Below are positions 5,315 through 62,740 of a stretch of 64,000 bases of DNA, in pieces. The notes beneath the pieces are model-generated. The model made no database searches and had not been told where the DNA came from. It saw nothing but the letters and a program-made list of their open reading frames with translations. The stretch is taken from the NCBI GenBank assembly GCA_035236585.1, contig CP141137.1, forward strand, positions 42,492,057 through 42,556,056, given 5' to 3'. Source of the DNA: Warburgia ugandensis. Its lineage: Eukaryota > Streptophyta > Magnoliopsida > Canellales > Canellaceae. The position numbers and the translations under genes were made by a program. Numbering within the stretch: the stretch's first letter is position 1; every line of letters begins with the position of its first letter.

Positions 5315-7591
5315 ATCTCCTCAGTTGAAATGACTTCGACCTATCGAAGGAGGAACATTGAACCTCTCAAGTGTATGCGTGCCCAATGTGGGGTATTTAA
5401 ATGCATATACATACACTTAGCTCATCATTAAAATCCTCCATGTATGTAGCTTCTCTATGTGGGGTCTTCAAATAGTGCCTATATACATGGGTCTTCAATC
5501 ATCTCTTACATGTACATCTTCCCAGGGTGGGGACTCATAGCAGTTGTCTTATTAACATAATTATTATATGTGAACTCAGCAATTGGTATAATGGTGTCCC
5601 AACTCCTATTGTGCTCTCCCACCAAGTACTTCAACAAATTTCCTAGGCTTCGAAACACAACTCCTATCTTGCTGTGTTTATGGATGGTAAGGAGAGGAGA
5701 ACTGAATCCTCATGCCCATTATGTCACATAGTGTCTTCTAAAAGTAGTTGACAAACTTGACATTCCTGTCAAACACTATGGACTTTGCTAACCCATGTAA
5801 TCGGACTATTTTCTCAAAAAAAATATTGACGATCCTAGATGCGCCTAGTAGTCTTAGAGCAAGGAATGAAGTGGGTCATTTTAGAAAAATGGTCCACAAC
5901 GACAAATATGGAGTCGTGCTTCTTGATAGTCTTGGTAGTCTATGCACGAAGTCCATGCTCAAGTCTTACTGTTAGGCATGTGACACTGGTTAAGGGGTTT
6001 ACATTCTAAAATGCATGACCATCCACTCTCCACTCATATAAACCATCATTCATCTTGAAGACGGTCTTCCACTCATCTCCTAGACGAATACAAACCTAGT
6101 GATAGCCACACTTAAGACCAATCTTTGAAAAGATCATGGCACCCACCAATATGTCCAACATATCGTTGAGCCTCAGTATAGGAAATTGATACTTGATCAT
6201 GATTTTTTTGATAGCTCAACTTTCTACACACATCCTCCATGACTCATCTTTCTTGGGTGTGACTAGTGCGCGTATGACACAAGGGATCAAGCTCTGCCGA
6301 ATGAACCTTTTCTTAATAATTCATCCGCCTATTTCTTCAACTCAACATGCTTGGTAGGATTCATTCTGTAGTGGGGAAGGTTCGGAAGACTGGATTTGAG
6401 GATTAGATCGATATGATGCTGAATATCCCTCATGGGAGGTAGCTCATTTGATAAATCGTTAAGAAAAACGTCCTGACACTCTTGTAGAACTGGTGCTACC
6501 TCGCTAGGGTAAGAAGGAGCTGGTAGCGATGGGATCTCTTTTGCTACTAAGTCATAGAAGAAAGGCTCATCTCTAATGTCCCTCGCAAATGCGGGGGCAC
6601 TAAAAATGTGGAGGCCTTTTAACTTTCGCTTTGCCATCCATGATCTACTACCTTCTTTTCGCTTAGGTGGTGCTTTGGGTGGTAGAGGATTGAGTCGGAT
6701 CTTGTTGCCGTCATGAAAGAAAGGGTATGAATTAGACCGGTCATAAATAGTAACGTCCATATCATAAAGCCATGGTTTGCATAAAGTAATGTGACATGCA
6801 TCTATAGGTGTTGCATCTATAGGTACCACATCACACCATAAGGTGTCCTTATATGTTAGAAAATCAATGGGAACCTGACACTTCTGATTAATTGGGAGCG
6901 ATGAAGAAGCATCAACCCACTCAACTTTATAAGGTCTAGGGTGGGGAAGGGGTGAAAATTCTAAGCTGGATATAGCATGGTGGAAATTATATTCGTGCAA
7001 CTCCCACTATCGATGATAACTTTTCAATTCTTTTCGCCACTCTTGACATATGTATGAAAAATGTTTGTCCTATGCCGATCATCACTATCCTTTAGGTGCG
7101 CGAGAGCACAGTTGACTACTGTCATACATGGGGGTATTACCCTCCCCATGGGCCCATAGGTCTCTCTTACTATGACAAATCCTTGACTGCTTGCCTCAAG
7201 GGCCTCCACATTGATGGCCTTGCCAACAAGCTCATAAACCTCCTTTGGCTATCCTTTATGCTCATTGTCGACATCCTCACCCCCTATAGGGCTCTAGAAG
7301 ACCAGCAACATGTCCAAACCCTTGACATCGATAACACTTAGTGTTGCTGTTTACCCTTGAGCTCTCTTCTGGCACAACCTTTCCTTTATCAACATTGGAT
7401 GCAATAGTCTCTTGTGTTTTAGGTTGTTGACTCCCAAATGTGGATTTAGCCCCAGATTCATATTGCCTAGTGGTTTGTGATTTGAGACACTGCTGTAATT
7501 CTTGCACTATTCGATAGGCATGATCCAAGGAATTTATATCTTGGGAGGTTTGATGTTCCTACTTCTTCAAAGTCTTTTCAGCTAGGGAGAC
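5315..7591 (-). pseudogene. Decayed Ty3/gypsy gag-pol, minus strand, internally deleted
   Basis: Parts appear in the expected gypsy order on the minus strand, in several frames. At 7528-7277 there is a gag C-terminus with a CCHC knuckle (CYRCQGFGHVA, last cysteine lost). Near 7019-6985 there is a retropepsin VIIDSGSC. At 7000-6329 there is the linker up to the reverse transcriptase (PPMRDIQHHIDL). At about 6305-6030 there is N-terminal reverse transcriptase ([22 protein letters not shown]). At about 5930-5590 there is the integrase core (SIFVVVDHFSKM and the HGL..SIV.DR region). The YxDD block of the reverse transcriptase and all of RNase H are missing between about 6030 and 5960. Stops and frameshifts throughout show it is dead. 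The N-terminal part of gag and the 5' LTR are absent; copy C abuts the broken gag directly. Confidence 0.85.
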
Positions 7592-13900: not shown

Positions 13901-16900
13901 CATGTTCTGGTTTCATGGCTTATGATAGTGAAATAGTATCTGCCTTTCTTTTCATCAATTTGGTGATATTCTACCAGCATCAGAGTCTGAAAATTATCTT
14001 TGCTTGTAGTGAGAATTTGTAGCAGGCTATTGGCATGCATCTTGATCCATGGTCGTGCTTGTTTTCATTTGTTACTTATGCTTCATTTGATTTTGAAATA
14101 TTCTCAGTTGACACTGCCAGAATATCTAGCTTCTCCTACATCTCCCAGTTCATTGGGCTTACTAAATGTCTTTAAGTATTGCAGAAAACCATAGCTGCTA
14201 GTCGGTTTTGGCACCGAAGAAAGCATTCCGTCGAGATTGATAACATTGTTCTTGAAGGCGAGATTGCTGAAAATGCTACTTCGGTAATTGAGGATGCTCT
14301 AATCCAACCAATCTCAAATTCTGCAACCTCTCCCACTAGCTCACTGCATGTACAAACTACTACTCAAATTGAACATAATGAAAAAGAGGAATGGGCAGCC
14401 ACACACATCCAAACTGCTTTTCGAGCATTTCTGGTAAGAATGTATTTATTGTAATCAGTAGATTTGGTATTTCTTCAATCTCCTTAGATCCACTCTTTTT
14501 TTTTGGAAGTTGGCTCGCAACTGTTCCTTATTAAGTAGTTTGCACTTGGCTGAAGAAGCAGAAATGATGTCATGATTCATGACTACTTCTCTTTTCCAAT
14601 TTTCAAGTTATGCACCATCTAGGGTGACTGAAGACTAGTTTAAAGTGGTTTTGAATTCTTGATGGGTTCTTTTTATGGATTTCTTGTTACACTTAAACAG
14701 CTAGTGCTCAATCAGGTAATGAACTAATGAAGCGCAATGTTAATCATTGGAGTTAAATTATCTCATGCTCATTAACCCAGCTCCCTTTCAGTTTGGTGGT
14801 GATAAAAACATAGTGTTAGTGATTACTTGCAGATTTCTGTTTTGTGAAAACCACCAGGCGATTATATTTACTTGTACAATAGAGTGAAGATCCTTGTCCT
14901 GTCTATTGAAACTAATATGAACAAAAGCATGGAGGGAAACAGACCATTAAATGTGGAATTCTGCAAGAGTCTGTGTTAATATTTGGATGCTGACTGTTGC
15001 AGTTCTTCATATGATTGTGTGCCAGGCAAGGCGAGCTCTGCGAGCTTTGAAAGGGCTGGTGCGACTCCAGGCCCTTGTTAGGGGTCATGCTGTGAGAAAA
15101 CAAGCGGCAATAACACTTCGATGTATGCAAGCTTTGGTGAGAGTGCAGGCTCGTGTCAGAGCAAGGCGTGTTCGCATGGCATTGGAGAGTCAGTTGGTGC
15201 AGCAAAAGCTTCAGCAACAACTTGTACACGAGGCTCGTGTTAGAGAGATAGAGGTAAATCAAGTTCAATCACTAATTAAATGTGACAGTATTGGTGGGGT
15301 TGGAAGTTAATCTAATAGCCAACTGTTGGTTTTGCTATTCCTTACAACATACAAAGTAGTGTAATACGCTAATTTGATAAGTTGTTCTACATTACTAGAA
15401 AATCATTGTGAACTGTTTTAGGTAAAACGAACCTCTTTAGCTACTCTTTTTACCCTCCAAAAGTTCCGTGACAATGATCCATACACACATTAGCTTCCGC
15501 TGTTTGAAGAAAACTGGGCATATTTCATAGATGAATTTTTTTTGGCAATGGTCTTGATGACTCATTTTTAGAAGTCTCAGTTCCTCCAATTTGGTTGATT
15601 TGGAAAAATATGGTGTCATTCTTGACTATGTGTTTTATTGGATAAAGAAGAGTTTTTCTTGATTGTTTGTTTAAGTGTTTGTGTTTGCAACAAACTGACA
15701 GTACTACCAAGCCCCGAGTTATTCAGTAATATATAGAAATATGTCTTATTTTTGTGAATTGCACTGTATTTGGTTTCTCTGTTGCCAGTATCTTATTCTT
15801 TGGTTGATTGCTGATGCAGGAAGGGTGGTGTGACAGTGTTGGATCTGTGGAAGATATTCAAGCCAAGTTGTTAAAGAGACAGGAGGCTGCTGCAAAGCGT
15901 GAGAGGGCCATGGCATATGCATTGGCTCATCAGGTGAATTTGGATAGCACCCTTTTTCTAAATATTGCATAGCTATCTTTGAGTTTCAACAAATTTGATG
16001 GGAACTGATATCTCTGGAGTATCAAAATGAAAATTATGTCAAAACATTACATTGCCTTCCAGAATTTTCTATTATTTTTAAGCCAGTCTTTGCCTTCATA
16101 TTCATTTGAAAAACTTATAATGTAGCATGGAAGTGATTTTGTCATCTCAAGCACAAAACTCTCAGCTTCTTTAGTTCCATTATCTTAGCCTTATCGTAAA
16201 TGTGTAACTTTAGTGAAGGGCAATAATTTTATCTATGGAAGAGGATAGGGACTTAGGTAAAAATTACTCCCCCTTTACATTTAAGCTAACTTATCGATCT
16301 CGTATGAGACAACATAGCATTTTTTCCCAAAAGGGTACTTAGTGATGTGAACTTCAAGTTCCAGTTCTGATACTGGAAACAGAAAGAAAATTCAAAAAAA
16401 TTAAAATGAGAGGAGAAAACCCAGTACAATTATGTACACTCAATTCTACTAGTAAAGCATTTGTTTTTATGTTACGAAATCATAAAATATCCATTTGCGT
16501 GGAAGTAAATAACTTGTTGACATTCTTAAAGCATATTAACAAGTTCAAATAAGCATGAGAAATTCACAGCCCACTGAAATAGGAAAATGGAGTACTAAAC
16601 AATTGTTTCCATTGTTTTTCTTCCTATCCTTCTCTCTCATTGTAATCGTCATTGTCAATGTTGTCATCTATTGCAAAATGTCCTCCAGCGTGATACATTT
16701 GATGCTAGTTCCAAATATGGTAGCAGCCTCACACAACTAGAGTTTGATCCGGAGCTTGCTCCTCTTCTTCTTCCTCAAGTGCCTTCAGCTCAAGCCCTCA
16801 CCCTCTCCATTGCTTGTCTACATTTTCAATCAGGATCATGAATACCAAAGTATACCACTTCGTTTACAATCTGGTCAACAACAATATTGGAGTTCTCAAG

Positions 16901-22900: not shown

Positions 22901-24078
22901 CCTTGGACAAAATAAGAAGCATGTGATATGTTTGCGTCTTTTATTGGTCTTTTCTAAATGCCTAGGCTAATAGAAGCCGTTCTGTATTGGCTGCTTTTAG
23001 TTTGTTGGATTTCCTTGGATGTAAACATCCTTTCATGCTTGTCCTCTCCAGTGGCAGGCAGGATCAAGGCAGCAAGCGGCACCGGCAGGGTTTGAACCAG
23101 ATAGAAACAACTGGGGATGGAATTGGCTAGAGAGATGGATGGCTGTTCGTCCTTGGGAAAATCGGTTTGTTGACATAAATATTAGGGATGGGGTGACGGT
23201 CCGGGAGGATGGATCAATGGAAGGGAAACACAATACCAAGAATCATGTCATGACTACCAGCAAAAAGCCTGGTCCATATTCCAACATATCTAATCAGAAA
23301 ACAAATCCATCCAATTCTGATGGAAGTGGCTCTTCATCAAGCAGGTCTGCTAATGTGCTAGCCCCATCAACCATGCTGTGTGCCAAGTCAAAATCCAAAA
23401 CATCACTGGAGCAGCCAATTGAAGAAGCCAGCTCCAAACCTTCTGGAATGGGTCCTCGATCCTACAGTAATCCAAAAGAGAGGCCAGTGGAACCAGATAC
23501 CCAGGCAAAGAAGCGGCTGTCCCTCCCTAGCAACGGTGAGTGGTTTATAGATTCTTTACATTTTTTCATAGACTTACCTTCTGTCATGGAGGCTTACTTT
23601 CAGTCACCAATTTTCTGTTGTCAACTTTTACATGTGAGATGCTTGAGCTATGTGACCGGCGAAGATGTACAAAACCATGCATACATTGCTCAAACTTTGT
23701 GACTTTATGCTTTCTTGATTTCAATTACTTGTCTATAACACACCTAAGCGACAAAACCTTTTATTGGTTTCTGGTCCTATTTTCTCATATCTGATCTTTG
23801 TTCTGCTGGATGTATTTTGTTTTGGCAATGCTTGCTCATTGTCATAGACAGTACTAGTCACTTGAATCCTTGTTTTTCTGATTACTCAGTTTTGCGTATT
23901 CTATTTCTTGCAACCAGGAACAGGTGCTGCAGTGCAAACTGCCAGGCGCCCTAGTCGTACTGCATTAAACTGGACGACAAATGCAGAAAAACGGAGTAAA
24001 GTTCGAATGAAATCAGAAGTAAGACGTGGTACAAATTCCACAGATGTGGTTTCAGAGGGAGTAGAGCAGCAAACTTGA
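10941..24078 (+). CDS. IQD: IQ67-domain (IQD) calmodulin-binding scaffold protein, six coding exons
   Basis: The coding exons are 10941-11027, 14185-14433, 15026-15253, 15820-15933, 23052-23535 and 23918-24078, giving 1323 nt and 440 residues. All introns are GT-AG; the first four are phase 0 and the fifth is phase 1. The N-terminus [19 protein letters not shown] is typical of the family. The IQ67 domain (about residues 98-164) has three IQ-type repeats: [25 protein letters not shown] and [11 protein letters not shown]. The intron inside the first repeat (after FRAFL) is at the position conserved in IQD genes. Later blocks are [20 protein letters not shown], a tryptophan-rich [19 protein letters not shown], and a basic serine-rich tail. 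IQD proteins bind calmodulin and act as scaffolds at microtubules, membrane or nucleus, influencing cell shape. It is probably closest to the Arabidopsis IQD5-8 group, which is a memory-based impression. No lesion is visible. Introns of 3157, 592, 566, 7118 and 382 bp are swollen by transposons. Confidence 0.95.
11853..12208 (+). pseudogene. rrn16: Plastid DNA insertion: rrn16 upstream spacer plus 5' part of 16S rRNA
   Basis: About 355 bp inside IQD intron 1 matches the plastid trnV-rrn16 region. First comes the spacer just before the gene (AAGTTATGCCTTGGAA, GAACAAGGAAG, AAGTAATGCAACC), then the start of 16S rRNA (CTGGCTCAGGATG, GGCATGCCTAAC, AGGAAGTGGTGTTTCC, CTGTAGGCTGAGGAGC, CTGATTAGCTAGTTG, AAGGCGATGATCA). 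Compared with the gene as I recall it, the copy has many transitions and a deletion of about 12 bp in the AACAACAGC stretch. It stops after the AGTTGG motif. It cannot be functional: it is a nuclear plastid insertion (NUPT), transcribed only as intron. Confidence 0.92.
12246..12388 (+). repeat. Imperfect tandem repeat, unit about 60 bp, 2.4 copies
   Basis: A block reading AAGAAAAGTGAACATGCTAA, then CAACAGGATAA, then a TAGATG/GGATG segment, occurs twice, and the start occurs a third time (AAGAAAAGTGAACAGGCTAA). It lies in IQD intron 1, just after the plastid insertion. Confidence 0.65.
15934..17925 (+). other. First part of IQD intron 4, nothing recognised
   Basis: This is AT-rich intron sequence following the donor CAG/GTGAAT. 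Open frames such as 16555-16740 and 17314-17550 show no domain or motif. Confidence 0.5.
17926..18800 (-). pseudogene. hAT-family transposase relic (BED finger and DUF659-like region), antisense in IQD intron 4
   Basis: On the minus strand, in order, there is a BED-finger-like start near 18795-18730 ([13 protein letters not shown]). A block near 18330-18290 ([17 protein letters not shown]) resembles the YGPGYKPPSYHEL block before the hAT core. At 18168-17926 an 80-codon open stretch contains [14 protein letters not shown] and [14 protein letters not shown], matching the TDNASNY..AG..L and CAAHC.DL motifs of plant DUF659/hAT transposases. Several stops and frame changes separate the blocks, and the C-terminal dimerisation domain was not seen. 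Terminal inverted repeats were not found. The relic is opposite in sense to the host gene, as tolerated intron insertions often are. Confidence 0.75.
19079..19130 (+). repeat. Dispersed plant repeat motif (ACCTTATCCCAATTAGGGG...GTCGGCC)
   Basis: The stretch ATCATCATCAAGACCTTATC followed by CCAATTAGGGGTCGG resembles a short motif that recurs in many plant genomes in SINE-like or other repeats. It is flanked by A-rich runs. I cannot assign the family. Confidence 0.35.
20777..20784 (+). repeat. Left target-site duplication CCATGAGG
   Basis: This octamer is identical to 21955-21962 and lies immediately outside CTATGT, the left end of the 1.17-kb element. Confidence 0.85.
20785..21954 (+). mobile_element. 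Non-autonomous DNA transposon, 1170 bp, hAT-like
   Basis: Perfect 8-bp duplications (CCATGAGG) flank an element whose ends are short imperfect inverted repeats: CTATGTAGGC at left, and CTATGTGGTC when the right end is read inward. Just inside both ends are GC-rich subterminal repeats in an otherwise AT-rich element. AGGCGCGACTAG occurs at 20791 and 20869 on the left. On the right is a perfect 16-bp palindrome CTAGTTGCGCAACTAG (21867-21882), followed by GGTGCGCCTAGT. The 8-bp duplication and subterminal repeats point to the hAT superfamily, although CTATG is not the usual hAT terminus. It has no transposase. It sits in IQD intron 4. Confidence 0.8.
21343..21720 (+). repeat. Three diverged repeats of about 165 bp inside the 1.17-kb element
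   Basis: The segment AATCTCCA..GGTTTCCATTCTAATG and then AAAATGACAACT.CATTTCA recurs at about 21343, 21508 and, partly, 21667. The frame at 21317-21553 is open only because it runs through two of these copies; it is not a gene. Confidence 0.6.
21955..21962 (+). repeat. Right target-site duplication CCATGAGG
   Basis: It is identical to 20777-20784 and immediately follows the right end ACATAG of the element. Confidence 0.85.
21963..23051 (+). other. Last part of IQD intron 4
   Basis: No repeat or coding relic was recognised. It ends with a pyrimidine-rich run and the acceptor CTCTCCAG at 23051, immediately before the codon for the tryptophan that opens exon 5. Confidence 0.6.
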
Positions 24079-35059: not shown

Positions 35060-35240
35060 CCATCTGTAGATGGGGCCTGGACAAAACCTATTCGAAGGGA
35101 AAGTCCTCCTTTGGCAGATTTTCCATCACCGTCCACTTGTTCGATTCCATTCCAAATGGTTAGGGCAGGCAGAAAAAACCTACCCATTCTGCAAAATAGA
35201 CATTGAAATGGAAGATCATATTTTTCTTAGATGCCTAGAG
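35060..35240 (+). pseudogene. LINE relic, part 1: zinc-binding region after the reverse transcriptase
   Basis: The frame from 35070 reads FEGKVLLWQIFHHRPLVR and then YPFCKIDIEMEDHIFLRC, the LW...(H/R)..L....C..C...E...H.F..C pattern of the zf-RVT domain of plant non-LTR retrotransposons. The reverse transcriptase itself is not upstream, so the LINE copy is 5'-truncated or eroded. The domain is cut at 35240 by the LTR element. Confidence 0.75.
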
Positions 35241-35532
35241 TGTTGTGCCAGATCTCACTCAGATTAGAGATCTGATGGTTAAGATCAATAGACTAGTAAA
35301 AGACAAAAACACACATGAAGAGACAAGGAGTTACAGGGTTCTACCAAATTTTGCCTATGTTTACGGGAGAAGATGAATGCTATCTGATCATATTATAATG
35401 GAAGAGAAGCCTTCTCCAACCCTCATCTATTTATCTACATACAAACTGTCACCCATTATACTCAAGCCCTAACATTATATATATGGGATTCTCACTCACA
35501 TAGGTATGAATCACATGCGGTCCATCCCAACA
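35241..35532 (-). mobile_element. 3' LTR of the minus-strand element carrying a PFP-beta fragment
   Basis: On the minus strand it starts TGTTGGGATGG and ends GGCACAACA. It matches 37336-37675 along its length. A purine-rich tract (GAAGGAGAT on the minus strand, 35533-35541) sits just before its start, as a polypurine tract should. Confidence 0.8.
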
Positions 35533-35859
35533 ATCTCCTTCATGCCCACGGGAGGAGGATGCACTAAATCCTTTCAGCTTGATTTAACTCTCCCAAATTT
35601 CAAGTATCTCTTTAATCCAACTCCCCCTCTAATAGTCGTTTGTGCTTTCCCATATTTGTATATTCTCTTGGAAGGGTTGCTACTCCCCCTGCTTAATACT
35701 CTCTGTTGAGTCTAAGTGCTTATGAATCATTGAGTATACCTAAAAGCTTGTTGTTAGAAGCCTGCCAGTGCTTCTTGCACCCTTCCTCATCGGCCATCCA
35801 TATTAGCTACTCACAAAATTCACTCCAAATGGTTACTTCCATTTGGAATGGGGTCACCA

Positions 35860-36140
35860 GGGCCACTCAGAATGGTCACTGAGTCTACTCAGAATCATAT
35901 GTTTCGTCGAGTCATCTCACCAGTATTTATTGAGCCATCCCGCCACTGTTCACTAAGTCATTCCACTACTATTCACTGAGTTATCTCGCTACTGTTCTGA
36001 AGTTAGCCCCACTTATGGTTATCGAGTTTACTCACAATAGTCACCGTGTCCACTTTTTTCACTTATTTACGTGTCCACTCACCCGTCATCATTGAGTTCA
36101 CTCCTAGCAGTCACCGAGTCCACTCACCAGCTATCACTGA
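35860..36140 (+). repeat. Degenerate minisatellite, unit about 25-35 bp (CACTGAGT.ACTC core)
   Basis: Phrases such as GGTCACTGAGTCTACTC, TTCACTAAGTCATTCC, TTCACTGAGTTATCTCG and GTCACCGAGTCCACTCACC follow each other irregularly. The repeat lies inside the LTR element and is non-coding. Confidence 0.6.
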
Positions 36141-36714
36141 ATTTCTTCACCAACATGAATTTTCTTGAGCAGTGGTGTTATTATCAATTTCATGAGATGC
36201 TAATTTTGTTCTCTAGAGGATGTCCTTATCAAAACTGGAGGGGGGGGGGTGTACAAAATTTTCTCCCTTAAGAGTGCCGCTATCAATCCAGTTGGGCGAT
36301 AAACAAGATTTTGTTTTTCTTTCTTTCCTCTCTTTTTCCTTTCTTTCATTTCTCTTCCCCGCACGTCACTGTCTCTCACCTACACCTAGCTTTCCATCTT
36401 CTCTCCACCTGCGCACGGCCACCGTCGTCGACTAGTGAGCGCATAGCCCAGCCCCGCCATTCTACAGTGATCAACAGTCCATCATTAGCAATCAACGTCT
36501 TGTGCTCCACCACCTTCGCTCTTTGTACTGTCCAGCCAAGTCGGTCAGGCGCCTGCGCCTCATCCGATGATGGGTCGATCTCCTTCTGCTGCTCGCAATC
36601 AATGGGTCGACCAATCACGTAGCTAATCTCTCAGGTTTTGCTAGAGGTTTTGAGAATTTAAGATCTTGGTCGCCTGATTTTTCGTTTTCATCCAACTATT
36701 AAGAAGCTTGCATT

Positions 36715-37290
36715 CTATTACCTCAAAGGAAAACTATGTAGAAGGCATTACATCCTTGACATCATCGCTTTCTTCCTTCTTACACCTCATCCACCATGAG
36801 TTAGGATTTCTTTAAGTTTTGCAATATGCTGTTGCTCCTCAGGAATGAAATTGATTAAGTCCTATGGTATAAGTATCACCCCATAGTTGTAACCAAGATC
36901 CGCACGATTACATATTACATATGTAATGTGGGAAGTTGGCCCATGAGCCTTACAAAGTAATAATATTTTTCACTCGATCAAGCATCTGATCATGACATTT
37001 CCTATCATTTCTGTATATATCTTGCATGCAGTATCAAATCCAAACTTGTTGGAACCTCGCATTTCAAATCACCATCAATCTTCCTTGGGCATCCAATAAC
37101 ACGAGTTTTAATATTCTTTACCCGTAGTTCTCAGCCAAGAGACATGCATTGGTATTTGAATCATCTCCCCCAATAACAACAAAACAATCCAAGTCAAGCT
37201 TCAATGCTGTGTCTTCGACTTGCTTAAATTGCTCCAGAGTTTCAACCTTGTTTCCTCCAGTGCTTTTGCAGAAACCACTGCCGCTTGTTA
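36715..37290 (-). pseudogene. Captured fragment of the PFP beta-subunit gene
   Basis: Read on the minus strand from about 37285, one frame gives KVETLEQFKQVEDTALKLDL followed by VVIGGDDSNTNACLLAEN. This matches the substrate/PPi-binding region of the beta (catalytic) subunit of pyrophosphate-dependent fructose-6-phosphate 1-phosphotransferase. Later stretches in other frames match the following family segments (CP..IDGDLK, EVPTSFGFDTACKIY, MIGNVM, YNYGVILIP, DFIPE.QQ). An internal stretch between the GFDTACK and NYGV segments is shortened. Frameshifts and stops show it is dead. No intron-like interruption was seen within the matched blocks, which would fit capture from an mRNA, but exon boundaries of the parent gene were not available for comparison. 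In a living gene the enzyme acts in cytosolic glycolysis. Confidence 0.85.
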
Positions 37291-37320
37291 GGTCAGATCT
37301 AGTCTTGTCTGATCAAACTC

Positions 37321-37335
37321 GCTCTAATACGACTT
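37321..37335 (-). other. Primer-binding site of the 2.4-kb LTR element
   Basis: The minus strand reads TCGTATTAGAGC directly after the inner edge of the 5' LTR. This resembles TGGTATCAGAGC, the complement of the initiator tRNA-Met 3' end used by many plant LTR retrotransposons. Confidence 0.6.
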
Positions 37336-37675
37336 TGTTGTGCCAGATCTTCCTCGGATTAGAGAACTGATGGTTAGGATCGATAGATCTGTAAGAGACA
37401 ATTACACACACATGAAGAGATAAGGAGTTATGTAGTTCAGCTAAACTTGGCCTATGTCTATGGGAGAGGAGGAATGCTATTTGATCAAATTACAATAGAA
37501 GAGGAGGAGGAGGAGGAGGCTCGGAGTTGCCTCCCCCCTTCCTCTATTTATCTACGTACAAACTCTCACCCACTCACACTCAAGCCCTAACATTATACAC
37601 ACACATGCACATACAGATATATATATAATTCTCACTTACATGGGTATATAAACTACATGCTGGTCTACCCAAACA
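37336..37675 (-). mobile_element. 5' LTR of the minus-strand element
   Basis: On the minus strand it starts TGTTTGGGTAG and ends GGCACAACA. It is longer than its partner because of a GAG/GGA-rich expansion near 37500-37525 and a TA-rich stretch near 37617-37630. Confidence 0.8.
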
Positions 37676-38590
37676 CAGAGCTCCTGGCTTTCAGGCAAAG
37701 TATTTCTATGCTCTTGCAAGGCATTGTTTTGATTTTGACAACCTCCAGAAAGCCTTTTCTTATTGGTTTTCAAAGCCAAGTACTAAGGGCAGAATAATTC
37801 TTCATATGCAAATGGCCAGGCATCGCTGGTTACCCCTCCGAACTCTGGAAGTCGGAAATTATATCGTCCGTCATCAGCAGAATCTGGAGAAGAGCAATTT
37901 GTCCAACACTTGGCGTAACATCACTTCTATGATCGCCACCTCATTACCTCAGCTGCATGGCCAACCGTTCTCACACCATCCTCATCCTAGCTTGGCATCA
38001 AACTAACTTCAAGATTTATCAACCATCCCTATTTGGCTTAAATGGTCCCCATCTGAGACAGTACAATTCGGCTCTGTTTTGATGGTGCGGCATCTCGGAA
38101 CCCTGTAACTGCTGGCTCGGGAGGTGTCTTCAGAGACCATGCTGGTCGTTTCCTCTTGGTATATGCTTTCCATGTTGGCCGTACCTCAAATAACATGGGC
38201 GGGCGGAAAGCTCTTTATGCTGGGTAGAAGCTTGCCAAGGTTTCTAATTTTTTACACTTGCAGGTCTGCGGAGATTCCAAGATCGTAATACAGGAAATGC
38301 AAAAAAGAACGCAAAGGAGATTACTGGAGAAGGGAAGGAACCTGTCGTGGACAACTCGTCAACGAGAAATGAGTGTTCTAAACTTCTGTCTAATTTTATG
38401 TCTGTCTTTTTTTCATATGTAGTAATTACGCGGCAAACACTAGCTAAATGGTAAACTAAATTTAAACAATTTGATATTTGGCGAGGTTCTCCGCCACCTT
38501 TCTTGTCCACTCCCTTCGGCGTGATGCTTTAGATGCTTCAGAGCCTCGTTGTTTTGTAAAACCCTAGTTTATTTTAATGAATTCCTCGTT
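37676..38590 (+). pseudogene. LINE relic, part 2: RNase H domain and 3' end
   Basis: After the insertion the LINE resumes with a frame reading YFYALARHCFDFDNLQKAF and SYWFSKP. Near 38060-38310 comes an RVT_3-type RNase H: CFDGAASRNPVTAGSGG, FRDHAGRFLLVY, SNNMGGRKAL and CGDSKIVIQEM. The first and last catalytic aspartates (in CFDGA and GDSK) are visible. The glutamate expected in the (A/G)ELKAL block is replaced (GGRKAL), and a stop follows a few codons later. An A/T-rich tail with AACCCTAGTTTATTTTAATG near 38560-38585 may be the LINE 3' end. Confidence 0.75.
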
Positions 38591-40611: not shown

Positions 40612-46050
<5,439 letters not shown>

Positions 46051-46055: not shown

Positions 46056-47630
46056 TGTGACGACTTTGGTTTTCTCATGCATTTTTAAATGCAAGATCTA
46101 ATTCCTAAGGCGGGATGCATCCCTATTTGAAAACCATTTTATAAAAACCATGCAATGCAGCGGAAAAATCTTTAGTTTTAAACTCATTTTGAAAACCCCG
46201 AGTGTCATTTGCTTTCACAACCACCAAAGTAGTTTTTGAAAAACTTCAAAAATCATAAATATTTTGCCCCAGGTCTATCCAGTCACAGCACACAGTCCAA
46301 CTGTAAATAAATACAAATACATGTCCAAAGGGTAGAGAGTTTACTCACATGTATAGTTGTCTCCTTTGTTTATTCACTTGCTTGTAGCACTAACATAGGC
46401 GTCCTCTACTCGTGACTGGAACTATCCTGAAAAATGTTAAGGATAGGGTGAGTATATACTATACTCAGTAGGAGTCTATCACTACTAGTTTTATAATGCA
46501 TGCTATGTTTAAAATCATATGCTCTTTAAAACATGTGCATGTTCGAACAATCATGTTTAATATCGATATTAAAAACCACTGTCAAATCGGAATACTGATG
46601 ACTTAAAGAAATAGCATAATCCAAGTTGAAAGTATCATATATTATAAACATAATGATATGCATAAGATGCTCAACTGAATCCAACTCATGGATATCTGGT
46701 ATGGTCGACCAACCTCATGTCATGCCATATGCAATGCAAATAAATCCTCAAACCATAGGATCCAACTATGCCCACCACCTTGCCGCCGTGTGGTCGCCGG
46801 GTACCTAGGGACACAGGGTCATATGCCTCCAAGGGACATATGACACTTCGACCCAGTGCCGTGACACCAATGGTAGCCCCTTCTACCACATGCAGTCAAA
46901 GCAGAGACATGCCCTTTTTTGGGCGTGGTACCCATCCACCTAATAGTGGTAGAGGTTGGAGGCCAACCCAAACCTCTCGGCATAACGCCCATGAGCTTAC
47001 CAGCCCAAATCATATACGATTAAACAAGCAAAAACCTCTTTTTCAAAACTTGTCCTCTTTGGGTCCCTCACAACTGCCTACCTAGTGTCTTTTGGGCACT
47101 CCAACATCTTTTGGTAACCCTCAAGGACATGTAATTTTTCAAGAACTCAATGCTCACAAATTATGTAATATATGCAATTGTTTGCAAAACATGTCTATGT
47201 ATAATGTATTTAATCATATGCATGCTGAATTCATTTATATACTAAACAAGCCATAAAATAAGTCATGCTAAACAAGTCATATAATTTATACTTAAAACAT
47301 ACATTCAAAACAATCATGGCTCTTTTTAAAAGTCTAGTAGCAATAGAGCACCTACCTCAAAGTCTCCTGGAGTTGTGTCCTTTATCACTCAACCCGTCCT
47401 TGGGTCTCATTTATAAACTCTTGGGTATGAATGGATACAAGGAGTCCTTATCAATTTCAGTCTATTTAGACATTAGATTGCCAGATCTGCCTTAAGGGTC
47501 CATGGTCCTTGCCTAATTCATTTTTCAGGCTAGATCCTATGATGTGGATATACTTTCCAATAGTTAAACTCTGTAATTTATCCTCTAATCCTAACTTTAT
47601 TATCTCGTTAGGTCTACGTGTCCTAGTTCC

Positions 47631-47925
47631 CAGGACACCCGTGCATCTTGGTTGGACCACGACCGCCTCACGTGCGTGTGCGCCCAAAGGCCGTGCCAAG
47701 GATTGCGTTTTGCATGCGCACATGCATGCTTAAGTGATGCCATCATCGCACGGATGCACCTTGTAGCATGGCGCGTCTCAGCTCCCAGGGCACCCTGTGC
47801 ACCCTGGTTGAGCCAGGACCTGTGCTCCATGTCGCGCGTGCACTTGAAGGCCACACCTGGGACAGTGTACGCATTGTCGTACATTGGAACCCATCCCAAG
47901 GACCCAGTCCCAGGTGCATGTGCAG
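47631..47925 (-). repeat. Tandem duplication of about 154 bp within solo LTR 1
   Basis: The block CCCAGGACACCCGTGCA..TGGTTG..CCA.GACC recurs 154 bp later (CCCAGGGCACCCTGTGCA). Solo LTR 2 carries the same kind of duplication (about 61181 and 61355), so it predates the split of the two copies. Confidence 0.6.
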
Positions 47926-48330
47926 CATGGCGTCCCTGGGACGCTTGGTTCGTGCAGGGCCGGCCCAAGCTGGCTTGGAATGTTTTTCGGCCAGGAACCC
48001 GGCTGGAAAACGACTGGAAAAGACCAGATCCGGCATGGATCTAGCCCTGGGGAAGCAAAAAGGAGAGGAAAGGGTAAGAACGGCTTACCTGTAGCCTAGA
48101 AACGCCCTTTTTCCCCGGTGGTGTGCTTGCTCGCCAGAAAACTCGAACAAGGGGGAAAACCCTATTGCCAGACCAGAAAGGAGAAAGGGGGCATGGGAAA
48201 TGGCAATGGCAGCTTGACTTGGGCCTGGTCGTTGCCGAAAAACACAGAGAGAAGGGTTTCTGATTTTTTCCTGAAACCTCAGTCCAAAACTTGCCGAAAA
48301 AACGTGTTTTTGGAGAGGGGGAGATGGGGT

Positions 48331-48337
48331 TTTTATA
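48331..48337 (-). promoter_or_regulatory. TATA box of solo LTR 1
   Basis: TATAAAA lies on the minus strand in a GC-rich setting. The second family member has TATAAAA at nearly the same distance (375 versus 399 bp) from its outer end. Confidence 0.6.
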
Positions 48338-48741
48338 GAGGGGAGATGGCGGTGCCCTCAATGGCGGTGCCGCCCTTTCCCTTGGGGTGTTCTGGAGAAA
48401 TCGAGAAAAACGGGTTTTTGGAGAAGTCTGGAGGTGGAAGACGACAGGGGGTGCCGTTATCAAAACGGTCCCCCTGCGTTTTTCTTCCTTTTTTCTTTTT
48501 TTTCGTTTTTCTATTTAAATTCCAGAAATACCCCTAATCTTTAAATGGCCGTAACTTCTTCATACAAACTCCGTTTTGGGTGATTTTTGAGGCGTTGGAT
48601 TCCATTTTTCGAGTAGAATCTAATGGTATCAAGTTTCCTTACAAATTCCTTCATTTAATATTTTAAATAAAATCAAACATTCAACACCGAATGTCCAATT
48701 TTTGTTAAAAATAGCGTAAATTTCTCGGACGTTACATCTTA

Positions 48742-55137: not shown

Positions 55138-56213
55138 TGATAAGTGTTCAATTTTGTATAAAAGTTTCCAATTAGTAGCCCATGTGTTATAATTTATATT
55201 GTTAAATTAGGGTTTTGACTGAAATTTTGTAACACATGCATTTCTAACCTAATAATTCAAAAGTTTGATATTTTGCAGGTTCATAGGCTAATCTAGAGTA
55301 AGTATATGAATAATCATAATTTACTAGGACTTAATTAAGGTTTTTCAACTTTTGTAGGTGTTGAGAAGGTAATCCAAAGGTTGAGCTTGATCAACATAAG
55401 AATTAAAGTCATTCATAAGGTTTCTTAATCTAACTAGGAAACCTAATCAAGCCAAAGCCCAAATGTCACCAATGAAAGGTTTGATGAAGGTTCAAAACTA
55501 TCCTAGGGCAAGTAAATAACCAATTAGAGAAGCAGAAGGTGACTGGAAATGGACCCAATCCCAAGTTATGCATTTCTAACACCTTTGCATGGGAGCCATT
55601 TAAGCCACCTTAGCCATTAAAGCCATGAAAAAGGGTAATAAGCTATATGGGCTACTTAAGCCTTGAAGCCAAACATTAAATCCACTTAAGCCATCAAGGA
55701 ATGAGCCATCAAAGTGAGCAATCAAACCAAAGAGGAGTTCCACATGGAGCCACAAAATTGGAGCATCAATTTAAGCAACTTCCTATGTTAAAAGTGTGAT
55801 TTTTAAGGGATTTTGAGATTAAGGTAAAAGGTAAGATGATCATTCTTTAAGGGATCCATCGAGAGAGAAAAATCCACTTTCCTAAACCATTTTTCATCTT
55901 TAATCCACCATTCACTCTAGGGTGCCACGTTTTTAAGTTAGGGAGGAAGATACCTTCCTAGAAGAGGATTCCCACCCATTGCTTAGTTAGCAAAATTCAA
56001 GTGGTTTCTTAATTAGGAAACCCTATATCCAAGTCCATGCAAACATGCAAAAACCCTAGGTTTTCTTCCAAAATTTTCATATTTATATATATTTTTTGAA
56101 TTCCCTCATTCTTCCCACAAGCCAATCACCGTCTAATTAGGAGGGTGGAGAGCCACTTACCAATCAATGAAAATGACATCTCCCTTCCTAATTTAGAAAC
56201 CAGCCAGCCCATG

Positions 56214-56299
<86 letters not shown>

Positions 56300-57281
56300 G
56301 TCATCCTTATTACATAATCTCCACCGAACTTTCCCCTTTCATACTCCACCTCAACCTAGATCTAGATCTCCACCTCTTTTATAGATTAAATATTCATCAA
56401 ATTGGAAGCTAAAACATTTGTATATTGCCCGAGGCTTCCAACTTTGTTTTCTAAGTAGAGGTTGGGTGAGACAACCTTGAAACATCCCACTCTTTGCTTG
56501 GTTATCTTTGGAGTTAGATGTTGGTTTTATTTAGTGCTATTAATCCTTTGGATTTCAAGTTATTTATTTGGTTATTTTCTCTCCAATTCTGGTTAGTAAT
56601 TTTCTTTCATTGTAGTTTCATTGCCTTACTTTCCATTGTTTTGCTTTCTAGTGTTACATTCATCTTCCACTTAGCTTTACCTCTTTTCTTTACTTCACTT
56701 TCATTAGTTTTTCTTACCTATTCTCTCAAGATTCAAGTTGGTTCTTCTCTGGTAGTGACCACCACGAGAAGAAATAACTTGGATGCTTGCCCTTCCCCTT
56801 AGGAATTTCATGTTTTTCTCCTTCAATTCACTTAGTTTTACGCATTTTTTCCATAGTTAGTTCAACCATCTACCCATCTTTTCTCTTGAATTCACTTCTA
56901 AGTTTTATTTGCATGTCATCATACTCTATATTGGAAGCTTTATATTGAATTTTTGTTGTTCTTGTTTATATTAGGTTTTGGGGCTTAGTTTCCTGCATAA
57001 TTTTTAGATTTATACACTTATTTTATGCGCAAAATTGTGATGTGATTTGGCCCTAATTCAATAATATTATTTAAGGATTTTTGTTATGGAATATTTTTAT
57101 CATCAAACTACTTTAGATATGGGTTATTATCTTGAATAAAATTTATTATTTCAGTTGCTTTATTTGCTTGATTTGATTTGAAGATCTACATACTTGAAAT
57201 CTAGAATTTCTCTCCTCAATCTTTATGCTTTGTTTCTAGCCATCAAATCTTTTTTTTTTCTTGAATCCTTAAGCACTCATT
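55138..57281 (+). mobile_element. LTR-like arm 1 of a large inverted repeat (3' LTR, truncated)
   Basis: It begins TGATAAGTGTTCAATTTTG, right after a polypurine-like tract, and its whole length is repeated in inverted order in arm 2. Matching blocks include CTTTTGAATTATTA, GTTTCCTAGTTAGATTAGG, CCTCCTAATT, GGTTGGGTGAGACAACCTTG and TTTGTTTCTAGCCATCA, read in either arm. It stops about 600 bp short of arm 2, where it meets the outer end of arm 2 (TGGTATAGC at 57282). It also contains a (TC)n tract of 83 bp that arm 2 lacks. Confidence 0.75.
56215..56297 (+). repeat. (TC)n microsatellite, about 41 units
   Basis: The tract interrupts arm 1 between AGCCCATGAT and ATGTCATCC. In arm 2 the matching position (GGATGACGAGTCATGGGC) has only a few bases, so the tract expanded after the arms arose. 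Confidence 0.95.
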
Positions 57282-58735
57282 TGGTATAGCTTTAAAATTA
57301 CTCGCAAGCTCATGAATCAAAGTAGTATTTGCATGCAAGAGAGGTCAATCCCATAAGGTATCCAATGAATTTGTATGTTGGATGAATCTTATTTAAAGTG
57401 CTTTACTTCATTCAAAGAGAGAGATTGGATTGATTTGAATTTAAACTATGAAAGAAAATGCATTAAATTAGAAACTATACTTGAAAAAAAACTTGCTAAA
57501 ATTAAAACTAAGCTATGAAGTTAGAAACTTAACTAACATTAAATTAAGAAAAGAAACTAATGTAAAACAAGCATGAAACTATTAAAAGGGAAAGTTTCCT
57601 AATTTGACACTTTCCTAAACAAGAAACTTTTTAAAAAATGGAACTTTATAAAACTAAGAAAGGAAACTTTATAAACCTAAAATAAGATACAAAAAACTAA
57701 TTAACAACTTTCAAAACAAGATTAAGCAACTAAATCAACCAAAGATCAAAGAGGAAAGTAACCCAGTAACATGCGCATGATGCATGGATGGTGCTCATGG
57801 TTCAGTTCATGGGTCCAAAGATGGTCATATTTGATGCTTTAAATGAAAATAAACATGCAAAATAATCTATAAAATCAATAAAGAACATAAAATTATAAAT
57901 AGCTTCTTAAGTATTCAAGCAAATAAGATGTTTTGATGGCTAGAAACAAAGCATAAAGATTGAGGAGAAAAATTCCAGATTTCAACTACGTAGAACTTCA
58001 AATCAAATTAAGCATATAAAGCAACTGGAAAACAATTTTTATGCAAGATAAAAACCAAGATATAACATAATTTGATGATAGAAACATTTAATAACAAGAA
58101 TCCTTAAAGAATTTTATTGAATTAATGCTAGATTACGTCACAATTATGAGCATAAATCAAGTGCATAAATCTAAAAATTGTGTAGGAAACTCAGCCCTAA
58201 TAACTAATCTAAACAACCATAAAAATTCAATATAAATTATGATGACATGCAAATAAAACCTAGAAATTAATTCAAGATAAAAGGTGGTTAGATGGGTGAA
58301 CTAACTGTGGAAAATATGCCTAAAACTAAGTGAATTGAAGGAGAAAAACATGAAATTCCTAAGGAGAAGGGCAAGAATGCAAGTTATTTATTCTCTTGGA
58401 TATCACTAATAGAGAAGAACTAACTTGAATATTAAGAGAATAATTAAGAAAAACCAATCAAAGTGAAGCAAAGAAAAGAGGGAAAGCTAAGTGGAAAGAT
58501 GAGTGTTGAACTATAAAGCAAAATAATTGAAACTAAGGCTTTGAAACTAAAACAATGAAAGCAAATTACTAATCTGAATTGGAGATAAAATATTCAAAGA
58601 AATAAATATAAATATAAAGGAAGAATAGCACAAAATAAAATCAAGGTCTAGCTCGAAAGATAATTAAGCAAAGAGTGCAATTTTTCAAGGTTGTCTCACC
58701 CAACCTCTACTTAGAAAAAATTGTAGGAAGCCTTG

Positions 58736-58774
58736 GCGCGCGCGCGCGCACACACACACACACACTCACACACA
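58736..58774 (+). repeat. (GC)n-(CA)n tract, alternating purine-pyrimidine
   Basis: Seven GC units run into about twelve CA units. The tract is present in arm 2 only; arm 1 has TTGTATATTGCCCGAGG at this place. Such alternating tracts are known to favour Z-DNA. Confidence 0.9.
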
Positions 58775-59471
58775 TAGATGTTTTAGCTTCCAATTTGATG
58801 AATGGTTAATCTAGGAAAGAGTTGGAGATCTTGATATAGGGTTGAGGTTGAGTTGGAAGGGGGAAAGTTAGGGGGAGATGATATAATAAGGATGACGAGT
58901 CATGGGCTGGCTGGTTTCTAAATTAGGAAGGGGGGAGGCATTTTTTTCCTTGAATGGTAAGTGGCTCTCTACCCTCCTAATTGGATGGTGATTTTTTGGT
59001 GGGAGGAATGAGGGAATGAGGAAGAAATAAAGATGGAAAATTTGGAAGAAAACCTATGGTTTTTCCATGAACTTGGATATAAGGTTTCCTATTAGGAAAC
59101 CATTTGAATTTTTCCAACTAACAAGGGGGGCATCCTCATCAAGGAGGGTTGCTCCGTCCTTAAAAACATGGAACCTTAGAGTGAATGGTGGATTAGGAAT
59201 GAGAAATGGTTTAGGAAAGTGGATTTTTCTCTCTTGATGGGTCCCTTAGAGTATGAACATCTTACTTTGTACATTAATCTCCAAATGCCTTAAAAATCAC
59301 ACTTTTAAAATAAGAAAGTTGCTTGAATTGATGCTCCAATCGTGTGGCTCCATGTGGCACTCCCCATTGGCTTGATGGATCACTTTGATGGTTCATTCCT
59401 TATTGGCTTAAGTGGCTTCAAGGCTTGAGTAGCTCATATGGCTTATCACCCTTTTTCATGGCTTTAATGGG

Positions 59472-59476
59472 TAAGG
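59472..59476 (+). repeat. Target-site duplication TAAGG of solo LTR 2
   Basis: The same pentamer follows the element at 62275-62279. Confidence 0.8.
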
Positions 59477-62274
59477 TTTGACGACCCGGGTTTTCCCATG
59501 CATTTTTCAAATGCAATAATTAATTCCCAAGGCAGGATCCCTATTTGAAAAATAATGCAATGCAGCGAAAACATCTTTTCATTTTAAACTCATTTTGAAA
59601 ACCCCGAGTGTCATTTGCTTTCACAATAACCAAAGTAGTTTTTGAAAATTTCTATACTCATAAATGTCTTCCCAGGTCTATCCAGTCACAGCTCACAGGC
59701 CAACTGTAAACAAATATAGATACATGTCCAAAGGAGTAGAGAGTTTACTTACATTCATACTTGTCTCTTCTTCATTACTTGATTGTAATACTAACAGGTC
59801 CTGATGCTTCTTCTACTCGTGACTAGAGCTATCCTGAAAAATAATAGAGTTGGGTGAGTATTTTCCATACTTAGTAGGTCATCTGATACTACTATTTTAA
59901 AAACACGGTATGCATCATGCATGGTTCCAAGAGCTTTTATGTAAAACATCAATGATTTATTTTGCGTAAGCATGCATAGTTATGCATAAAACATAAACTT
60001 ATTGATGCGATGTAAATCATGGAATCCGTATACAAATCACGTCATATGAATACGACTAAAATAGAAATCAATAGGTCCATATACAAAGATTTCGGAAAAT
60101 GTATCAAACCAGCAAGTCATATAGAATACTCATGAAAATCTTAGAATAGTCATCATTCAAATATATGCTAGTATCATGCACATAAGTCTCTCGGCATGCA
60201 TGTCACGCCAACTGGTTACAAGTACTCGTATACGACCATCTCAATGCTATATGCATATCAATCACATTGAAATCATAAGGCCACTACGCTCATACTCAGC
60301 ATACAGCTGGAATCTACCATAGCCTCCACGGCGACTATGGATGTCCCCGAAAGGGTGCCATGAACACCTTCAGTGGTAGTCCCTGTTTATCACAGTAGTC
60401 AGGGAAGGGACAATGCCTTTTTGACAGTAATACCTTCCACCCTTTTGGTGGTAGAGGCCGGGAGGCCAACCCCGTACCTCCTTTCAGCATAGTGCCCACT
60501 AGGCTTATCAACCCATAAAATATAAAATCATGTCCTCTTGGGGTTCCTCACATTGCCTGGGCGTCACACTGCCTCACCAGCGTCTTTTGGGCACTCCAGT
60601 GTCTTTTGGTAACCCTCAACGTTATGCATTTATTCGAATCTCAATAATCGAAAATCATGCAATTTATGCACTTATTCATAATAAATTATGTAATTTATGC
60701 CAAGCATTCTAAAGTATGCGAGCAATGCATTCATAAAATCATCTCAATGCAAATGATCACATTCAAGACCACATATTATGAAAACAACTCGATAATAGAA
60801 GATTAATAAATCAAGTACATTTGGAAATGCATTAAAAACATAGCAGTATCAGACTACCTACCTCGTGCGTTGTTACGTAGCTCATGCCTGTCTTTACTTC
60901 GAGTCCAAGAATATCTTGGTAAGGTCCTGAATGATGTTTAAACAAAGATCTAGGCGTTATTAAAGGTCATATGATGTTGGTTTCTAGGGGCTATTCTATG
61001 ATATTTTTCAGTTGCTCTTTATCTAAGAATGTCATTTATTTTATTGTATAATTGGGTTCATGTCAAAATTACGGACGCAACGGTCCTTTTGGATTATCAA
61101 TCAGAGTCCTATAACTCCTGTAATTGCATTTTAATGTTATAACGTCATGGACAATCTAGCTTTTGTCCATGCGGGCCCCGCACGCCATGTGCCCTGGTCG
61201 AACTAGGACCCATGCTTGCACGTCATGCGCACCCGAAGGCCACACCAGGGACCGCGTTTGTGCGCACATGCAAGCCCAAGCGACGCGGTATGACGCATCC
61301 TTCAGGGCGTCGCACAGATGCATCTTTGGCACAGGCGTGATGCACCTCAGCTCCCAGGACACCCCGTGCATCCTGGTCAAGCTAGGACCCGTGCCCTACG
61401 TCACGCACGCCCAAGGACCGTGCCAGGAACCGTGCCCTAGGCATGTGTCATGCACCACGCCCCTGGGACGCATTGCCTTGGACGGGTTCCCACCCGTCTG
61501 GTTCCGTCCTCAGAGGGCGGTGTTTTTTGGCCGAAAAACCTCCTAGATCCGGTCTGTATGTGGGAAATGATGAAGGGGAGATAGAGAGGGAGATGGGCAC
61601 TTACCTGGGTAGCCGGAGATGCCCTCATATGGGTGGTGCGGCTCCCTCTTTCCCGTCTGAAAACCTAGATCGCCGGATACTCGAAGACGGGAGAAAACCA
61701 CCCACCATCTTGGTGCGATGAGAGGAAGAAGGGGGGGTGGAGAGGTGGGAAGGACGGCCGGCCTGAAGGGATGACCTGGACCGGTGCCAAAAATCGCAGA
61801 GAAGCCTAGGGAGGGGTTTTCCAAATTTTCCAAGAAAACCTCAGCCCCAAATAACCAGGAAAATGTGATTCGAAGAGGAGGGAAATAGGGCTTTTTATAG
61901 CCATTCCATGGCGGTGGTGGAAACCTGTGGAAATGGGGGTTTCCAGAGAAATTGAGAGGAAGAAGATAGGGGGTGCCGTTATCAAAACGGTCCCCTGTGT
62001 TTTCTATGTTTTTTGTTTTTAATGTAAATTACAGAAATACCCCTAATCTTTAAACGCCTATAACTTCTTCATATGAACTCCGTTTTTTGCGTTCTTTGAG
62101 GCGTTAGATTCCATTTTTCGAGTAGAATCTAATGGTACCAAGTTTTCTTACAAATTCCTTAGTTTATTATTTTAAATAAAGGAAAACATTTAACATGGTT
62201 CATTTCCTATATAATGTCCAATTCATTTTTGTCAAATGGATGCAAAAATAGCGTAAATTGTTCGGAGTATTACA
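59477..62274 (-). mobile_element. Solo LTR 2, 2798 bp, same family as 46056-48736
   Basis: It shares order and sequence with solo LTR 1 from one end to the other, is in the same orientation, and is flanked by TAAGG on both sides. Its outer base pair on the right (minus-strand end) has changed, so the + strand reads TTTGACGACC where LTR 1 has TGTGACGAC. On the minus strand it begins TGTAATACTCCG. It splits arm 2 of the inverted repeat: the arm reads GCTTTAATGGG on one side and resumes with GTGTCTGGAATG on the other. It is therefore the younger insertion. Confidence 0.85.
61893..61899 (-). promoter_or_regulatory. TATA box of solo LTR 2
   Basis: The minus strand reads GGCTATAAAAAGCCC, 375 bp from the element's minus-strand start. 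This is the counterpart of the box at 48331-48337. Confidence 0.65.
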
Positions 62275-62740
62275 TAAGGTGTCTGGAATGACTCCCTTGC
62301 AAAGGTGGTGGAAATGAATGACTTTGGATTGAGTCCATTTCTAGTCACCTTTTGATTCTCCAATTACTTCTTTACTTGCCATAGGAAAGCCTTGAACCTT
62401 GATTACACCTTTGATCGATGACATTTAGGCTTTGGCTTGCTTGGGTTTCCTAGTTAGATTAGGAAATCTCAATTCTTATCTTGATCAAGCTTGGCCTTTG
62501 GATCACCTTCTCAACACCTACTATAGATGGAAAACCTTAATTAAGTCCTAGCAGATTATGATCATTCACATACTTACTTTGGATTAGCCTTTGGACCTGC
62601 AAAATATCAAACTTTTGAATTATTAAGTAAAAAATGCATGTTGTACAAAATTTTGGCCAAAACCCCTAAATTTAATACTATAACTTATAACACATGGGCT
62701 ACAATTTGGGTACTTTTTATACAAAATTGAACACTTATCA

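Follow-up and report, generated by a model that had tools for sequence, protein, structure and literature searches.

The element and its contents

The locus at positions 35241-37675 of the window (the whole 64,000-nt stretch analysed here, which we placed at C12:42492057-42556056 in the 1.12-Gb, 14-contig assembly that was searched) is a decayed non-autonomous LTR retrotransposon of 2,435 bp, read on the minus strand. Its features are as follows, in window coordinates and from the 5' end of the element:

37676-37680, unstranded: target-site duplication copy CAGAG, pairing with TAGAG with one mismatch
37336-37675, minus strand: 5' LTR, 340 bp, TGTTT...CAACA, one of the direct repeat pair
37321-37332, minus strand: primer-binding site TCGTATTAGAGC, tRNA-Met type, 10/12, 3 nt inside the 5' LTR
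37278-37335, minus strand: leader, common to five other loci that lack the captured cassette
36796-37259, minus strand: PFP beta-subunit fragment, seven exons, sense to the element, with frameshifts and stops
36922-36929, minus strand: ACATTACA, site of a 99-nt deletion common to all three copies of the cassette
36795-36800, minus strand: CTCATG microhomology at the join of PFP exon F and the inverted PFP 5' end, compared by eye
36770-36801, plus strand: end of the PFP beta 5' UTR and ATG AGT, inverted relative to the other PFP exons, 29/32
36625-36765, plus strand: NAC fragment, early coding region, antisense to the element, 75% to C8:22921292-22921431
35533-36616, minus strand: 3' internal core, all or part of which also occurs in family loci devoid of the cassette
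35534-35541, minus strand: polypurine-tract-like GAAGGAGA, a short purine run preceding the 3' LTR, read directly from the sequence
35241-35532, minus strand: 3' LTR, 292 bp, TGTTG...CAACA, the other direct repeat, about 81% identical to the 5' LTR
35236-35240, unstranded: target-site duplication copy TAGAG, pairing with CAGAG at 4/5 positions

Both direct repeats have TG..CA termini and match each other by blastn with an E value of 1.8e-50. Aligned at 292 sites, they show 37 transitions, 16 transversions and six gaps, a K2P distance of 0.213 (95% interval 0.157-0.282). The two LTRs, the tRNA-Met-like primer-binding site and the polypurine-tract-like run that a preliminary description had read at this locus were all seen. 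For the primer-binding site, the score of 10/12 against the tRNA-Met motif compares with at most 4 at the 11 other offsets tried. Within the window, blastn at E 0.01 returned no second match to the element.

In agreement with the earlier statement that the element carries no gag-pol, none of the 21 stop-to-stop frames of at least 38 amino acids in 35560-36790 has such a domain by Pfam; besides NAM, these frames gave a single chance match, to a pertussis toxin subunit family (E 0.15, far under its cut-off). Degenerate repeats of 23 bp occur in the core, as does a tract rich in pyrimidines on the plus strand. Its GC-rich part, 36386-36616, was considered as a third captured gene and rejected; we count it as core because its relatives (C12:63071924, C8:14329075 and C3:5365947) lie in loci that also hold the family core. 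With a length of 2,435 bp and LTRs of 292-340 bp, the element exceeds the size used to define TRIMs and is not filed as one. The window copy itself is dead, and no product is expected from it.

An older LINE probably surrounds the element, as weak Pfam traces of a non-LTR element in the neighbouring DNA suggest (RVT_3, E 0.001, and, with the flanks joined, zf-RVT, E 0.042; both under curated cut-offs). Elsewhere in the window, open frames at 14951-15310 and 23025-23702 (plus strand) resemble exons of an IQ67-domain (IQD) protein by their motif and have no convincing Pfam match. A 225-amino-acid frame at 6329-7006 (minus strand) looks like a decayed piece of Gypsy pol and has no Pfam match. Long repeat pairs lie at 55138-59902, 61958-62740 and 46058-48686, including an inverted pair of 1,009 bp at 81%, and a long CT/GA and CA/GT microsatellite at 43684-44082 opens frames on both strands.

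A broken PFP beta-subunit sequence in the sense of the element

The peptides KVETLEQFKQ and VVIGGDDSNTNACLLAE, from which the PFP fragment was originally recognized, are present in the sense of the element as described, and the match to PFP is significant; the fragment extends well past these two peptides, covering 464 bp from 37259 to 36796. Its first and last exons are partial and two others are cut by the 99-nt deletion. Of 80 long-form PFP proteins fetched from bacteria, 69 were built into a profile, which matched in four ordered stretches distributed over three minus-strand frames (profile positions 142-190, 189-252, 216-249 and 289-350 of 552; domain E values of 1.2e-16, 1.6e-10, 2.5e-10 and 3.5e-6), and 20 random windows with matching dinucleotide composition scored at most 2.9 bits against it. 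The NCBIfam model TIGR02477, named diphosphate--fructose-6-phosphate 1-phosphotransferase, matched at its positions 138-184, 187-208, 212-233 and 291-329. Against the PDB, the best piece had a sole match at E <=1, the Borrelia enzyme 1KZH.

An intact reading frame at insertion was rejected, as the frameshifts (a 1-nt deletion and a 1-nt insertion), a TAG stop and the 99-nt deletion are shared by all three copies described below. The missing 99 nt run between the only two ACATTACA words in the seven spliced exons. Among columns invariant (>=90%) in bacteria, 12/63 are replaced, compared with 20.4% expected from half the LTR divergence. Taken alone this had favoured an intact frame, but it is a test of low power in which the columns are bacterial and the plant parent has Y at one of the 12, W244.

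The fragment has neither the poly(A) tail nor the target duplication of its own that would mark a processed pseudogene. No word of 7-12 nt is shared between 37255-37335 and 36640-36800, and on the element sense strand an A run of at least 6 occurs only at 36059, far from the fragment. An insertion boundary belonging to the PFP fragment, which had been named as evidence against its capture by the element, was thus not found.

The parent gene and its missing introns

Searching the genome with TIGR02477 identified a multi-exon PFPB gene near C14:54110725-54143106, whose exons are 79-90% identical to the element fragment. Seven of its exons, each with AG/GT borders and measuring 54, 107, 106, 64, 89, 132 and 171 bp, can be spliced into an uninterrupted reading frame that contains a PFK domain (E 2.1e-26). 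The introns between them measure 154, 206, 20039, 1609, 2795 and 321 bp. The comparison with a parent gene that had been proposed therefore has a clear outcome, with the parent in the same genome and its introns missing from the element: five of the six exon borders are joined directly. The sixth, D/E, falls inside the 99-nt deletion, and the D-E intron is also absent; its absence alone is no proof of splicing, since it could equally result from a jump on unspliced RNA. Taken over the PFP joins, the loss of introns shows that there was an RNA intermediate.

Four other multi-exon TIGR02477 loci (L101-L104), which may be alpha-subunit genes, were not taken as the parent, as the fragment matches them weakly. 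Further TIGR02477 loci at C2:1698238 and C13:1523048 were absent among the matches listed for the DNA search with the fragment. Cassava MePFPB1 has been described with 16 exons (PMC8365977), in keeping with a structure of numerous short exons.

An inverted PFP 5' end and an antisense NAC piece

The preliminary description was right about PFP and overlooked two further pieces of cargo, an inverted PFP 5' end and an antisense NAC fragment. Orientation within the cassette is therefore mixed, with the PFP exons in sense and both of these pieces in antisense.

The inverted PFP piece has its counterpart at C14:54110458-54110489. When the three copies were compared with 400 bp around the PFPB start codon, they gave local scores of 49, 40 and 43; in a control of 2,000 random 42-mers from the window, the 99th percentile was 22 and the maximum 41, the latter perhaps from a 42-mer that overlaps the true site.

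Pfam NAM matched 36625-36765 below its cut-off, with an E value of 0.014 within a single frame and of 0.0027 when a frameshift was read through. Every PDB match at E <=10 was to a NAC chain (1/1 with a best E of 0.21, and 4/4 with a best E of 0.0099). By tblastn, three NAC segments scored 27.3, 23.9 and 24.3 bits against random bests of 21.6, 21.9 and 23.9 among 60 random windows, the margin of the third segment being narrow. The match to the C8 locus, 141 bp at 75% within a frame that holds an intact NAM domain start (E 7.4e-15), is what decides the NAC identity.

The same chimera on C11 and C6

Searching the genome with the whole element returned at least 64 matches (40 of 1,105 first-look candidates were scored). 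Queries with parts of the cargo returned 7 and 11 matches, which were the window, C11:9922850-9925380, C6:49690372-49692343 and parent exons, core or leader. The C11 and C6 copies contain PFP, the inverted PFP 5' end and NAC in an order identical to that in the window. The parent and the three copies align without gaps in 392 columns (the C6 row being the second of its tandem pieces), and at 19 of these the copies agree with one another against the parent. Private differences number 29 in C11, 15 in the window copy and 17 in C6, and those shared by pairs 4, 1 and 1. From the shared lesions and differences we conclude that there was one capture, of a piece already broken when it spread. The genome-wide DNA search thus confirmed, through the same fragment in the C11 and C6 elements, the suggestion that this would be a transducing family.

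The flanks of the window element, taken for 3 kb in each direction, gave no match to the C6 locus and one 119-bp match to the C11 locus, away from the element; judged by their flanks, the three carriers occupy unrelated sites. For the window and C11 copies, which have both LTRs, 18 informative sites group the LTRs within a copy, 5 by LTR end and 3 crossed. The LTRs are thus closer within than between copies, as retrotransposition predicts. The C11 copy has the primer-binding site TGGTATTAGAGT, also 10/12 when counted by eye, and flanks GTTTC/GTTGG that make a poor target duplication (3/5). The C6 copy has a weak 5' LTR match (L100:1955-2070, with 2/8 LTR queries), and its cassette contains a 206-bp tandem duplication at 97% (L100:2219-2631).

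Together, these results identify one capture of spliced RNA that later spread, so that a mobile family has distributed pieces of host messages. The cassette was dead coding sequence already when it spread.

Cassettes and cores with probably different relatives

Twelve further loci, fetched by their match to the 3' core, lack the cassette, and 11/12 also match LTR queries. We built a core tree from these twelve and the three carriers, leaving out L127 (partial) and L084 and L085, which are the same places as L116 and L115. Between carriers, the cassettes are 83-86% identical and the cores 73-74%, which makes the carriers' cores no closer to one another than to those of the remaining loci. The cassette has probably moved between element lineages, most plausibly by template switching: a test of the carriers as one clade rejected it (AU p 0.0119), the clade appeared in 0/200 bootstraps, and the window core is nearer that of the cassette-less L116 (0.777) than those of C11 (0.730) and C6 (0.744).

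Against this, cassette and cores may have descended together, with fast-evolving and badly aligned cores misleading the tree, and we give this reading appreciable weight while holding it to be the less probable. None of the 12 inner branches of the core tree is well supported, the tested group was chosen for its cargo, and identity between the carriers' cores and those of the other loci is only 70-78%. Cassette and core also lie less far apart when transversions are counted (0.055-0.063 in the cassette, 0.081-0.084 in the core, and 0.065 and 0.070 in the LTR pairs). As this contrast is smaller than that in total identity, part of the gap reflects faster transition change in the core and the LTRs. 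The 3' breakpoint can be placed no more closely than within about 36386-36625, as a cassette-less element otherwise closest to the window copy was not found.

A probable route for the uptake of host messages

We consider it very probable that a non-autonomous LTR retrotransposon acquired host messages in the course of reverse transcription and subsequently retrotransposed. The sense PFP capture fits a jump during first-strand synthesis, and the antisense pieces need a change of strand. In the order of events that we infer, reverse transcriptase would have jumped from the element RNA onto PFP mRNA, copied it from exon F back to an internal exon while skipping the 99 nt between the ACATTACA repeats, and then returned from the PFP mRNA to the element leader by a further jump. 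While the second strand was being made, a jump at CTCATG would have led to PFP mRNA near the start codon and a run toward its 5' end, and the next jump to NAC mRNA, again with a run toward the 5' end before the return to the element. Both antisense pieces do run toward the 5' ends of their mRNAs, as a model of second-strand jumps predicts. Later jumps probably put the cassette on lineages with different 3' cores.

The main alternative is that a PFP-NAC chimeric retrocopy, made by a LINE or by cDNA break repair, was inserted into the LTR element and carried along passively. Any cDNA route would produce absent introns, and chimeric cDNA capture by LINEs and by break repair has been published (PMC2104539, PMC4516963). 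Antisense capture is moreover unusual for LTR transduction, in which the pieces usually lie in the sense of the element, a feature described as usual and not as defining (PMC7264820). We nevertheless consider this origin improbable. No poly(A) tail was found, and the PFP end regions share no direct repeat of 7-12 nt, although short duplications may have become unrecognizable in boundaries this old and decayed and the check covered the PFP ends alone. Neither end of the fragment reaches an end of the mRNA, and its breakpoint in the leader, 37278-37291, is where five other loci change sequence. Capture of genomic pieces at the DNA level by a Helitron, a MULE or break filler DNA, in the last of which mixed orientation is common, would be compatible with a NAC piece that lies within one open frame and alone cannot separate RNA from DNA, but it is largely refuted by the intron loss at five PFPB exon joins. 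The TG..CA LTR ends with a 5-bp duplication also speak against it, and we regard it as scarcely credible.

A possible cargo slot

The five loci that share the leader (L138, L139, L140, L152 and L153) match the element up to its positions 385-398 (window 37291-37278), and in L139 and L140 a different sequence of 1.0-1.2 kb separates this match from the core. A comparison of eight inner regions revealed common sequence in three pairs, of 23, 48 and 63 nt. Sequence from the cargo of L139 and L140 was also seen inside or next to further members of the family. In another family member, at L108:401-688, we found a piece of a GUB_WAK-domain receptor gene, with a parent at C3:2487385-2487629 and about 160 nt skipped; as its 5' LTR is truncated, we treat this as a lead rather than a second proven capture.

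We tentatively suggest that the stretch from the leader (about 58 nt) to the core is a refillable cargo slot that accepts various sequences, among them host mRNAs in either orientation, with LTRs, leader and core retained, and that cassettes pass between lineages. It is possible, though we would not call it probable, that the family is in this respect a retrotransposon counterpart of Pack-MULEs, with switching at the recurrent element positions 385-398.

Two further observations concern members of the family. The L140 cargo at L140:1558-2181 is shared with C8:458895-459647, C10:16740658-16741415 and C10:16981339-16982141, and these three relatives have the same 135-bp gap relative to L140, for which an insertion or an intron is possible. 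A WHIM1 frame at L111:1359-1532, whose motif scores above the curated cut-off, is not claimed as a capture, as it adjoins the edge of another repeat and no parent was found.

Relation to known gene-capturing elements

Exon capture by LTR elements is already known; a mixed-orientation cassette and its possible reassortment are less usual. Maize Bs1 holds three transduced host-gene segments, exon-only pieces inside one retrotransposon (PMC13317346, PMC4717578). It resembles the present element in having exon-only pieces from several genes and no full open frame, a likeness of description, and differs in that here PFPB occurs in both orientations and NAC in antisense. TRIMs such as soybean GmaRetroS15 likewise have two LTRs, 5-bp duplications and spliced pieces of more than one gene. 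Gene-capturing TRIMs are described as mostly having two or more copies and measuring 1,172-1,449 bp (PMC4717578), whereas the element here has 2,435 bp and a 1.1-kb family core of its own.

In rice and sorghum, 672 and 1,343 LTR-captured genes have been reported inside full-length LTR elements (PMC3726574). These are, as here, host genes within LTR elements; mixed-orientation joins and the apparent cassette movement found here have no mention in the accessible part of that report. Veju and BARE-2 are described as cases in which abnormal template switching between packaged RNAs gave chimeric elements (PMC13317346). There, element RNA was joined to RNA of another element or to DNA of unknown origin, whereas here two host mRNAs are involved. 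The view that transduction by LTR elements is rarer in plants than that by MULEs or Helitrons, with which the locus had been introduced, holds in a species-dependent way (PMC3726574, PMC7264820). Among the literature matches listed on capture of a phosphofructokinase by LTR elements, no paper named the enzyme.

At this locus, the uptake of host messages by an LTR element has left a legible record: the parents, the lost introns, a skip between repeats, an inverted join at a microhomology and three copies are found within a single genome. Should the cargo slot and the movement of cassettes be confirmed, LTR elements would resemble Pack-MULEs and Helitrons in shuffling gene pieces from lineage to lineage, and the order in which such pieces were joined could be derived from many copies.
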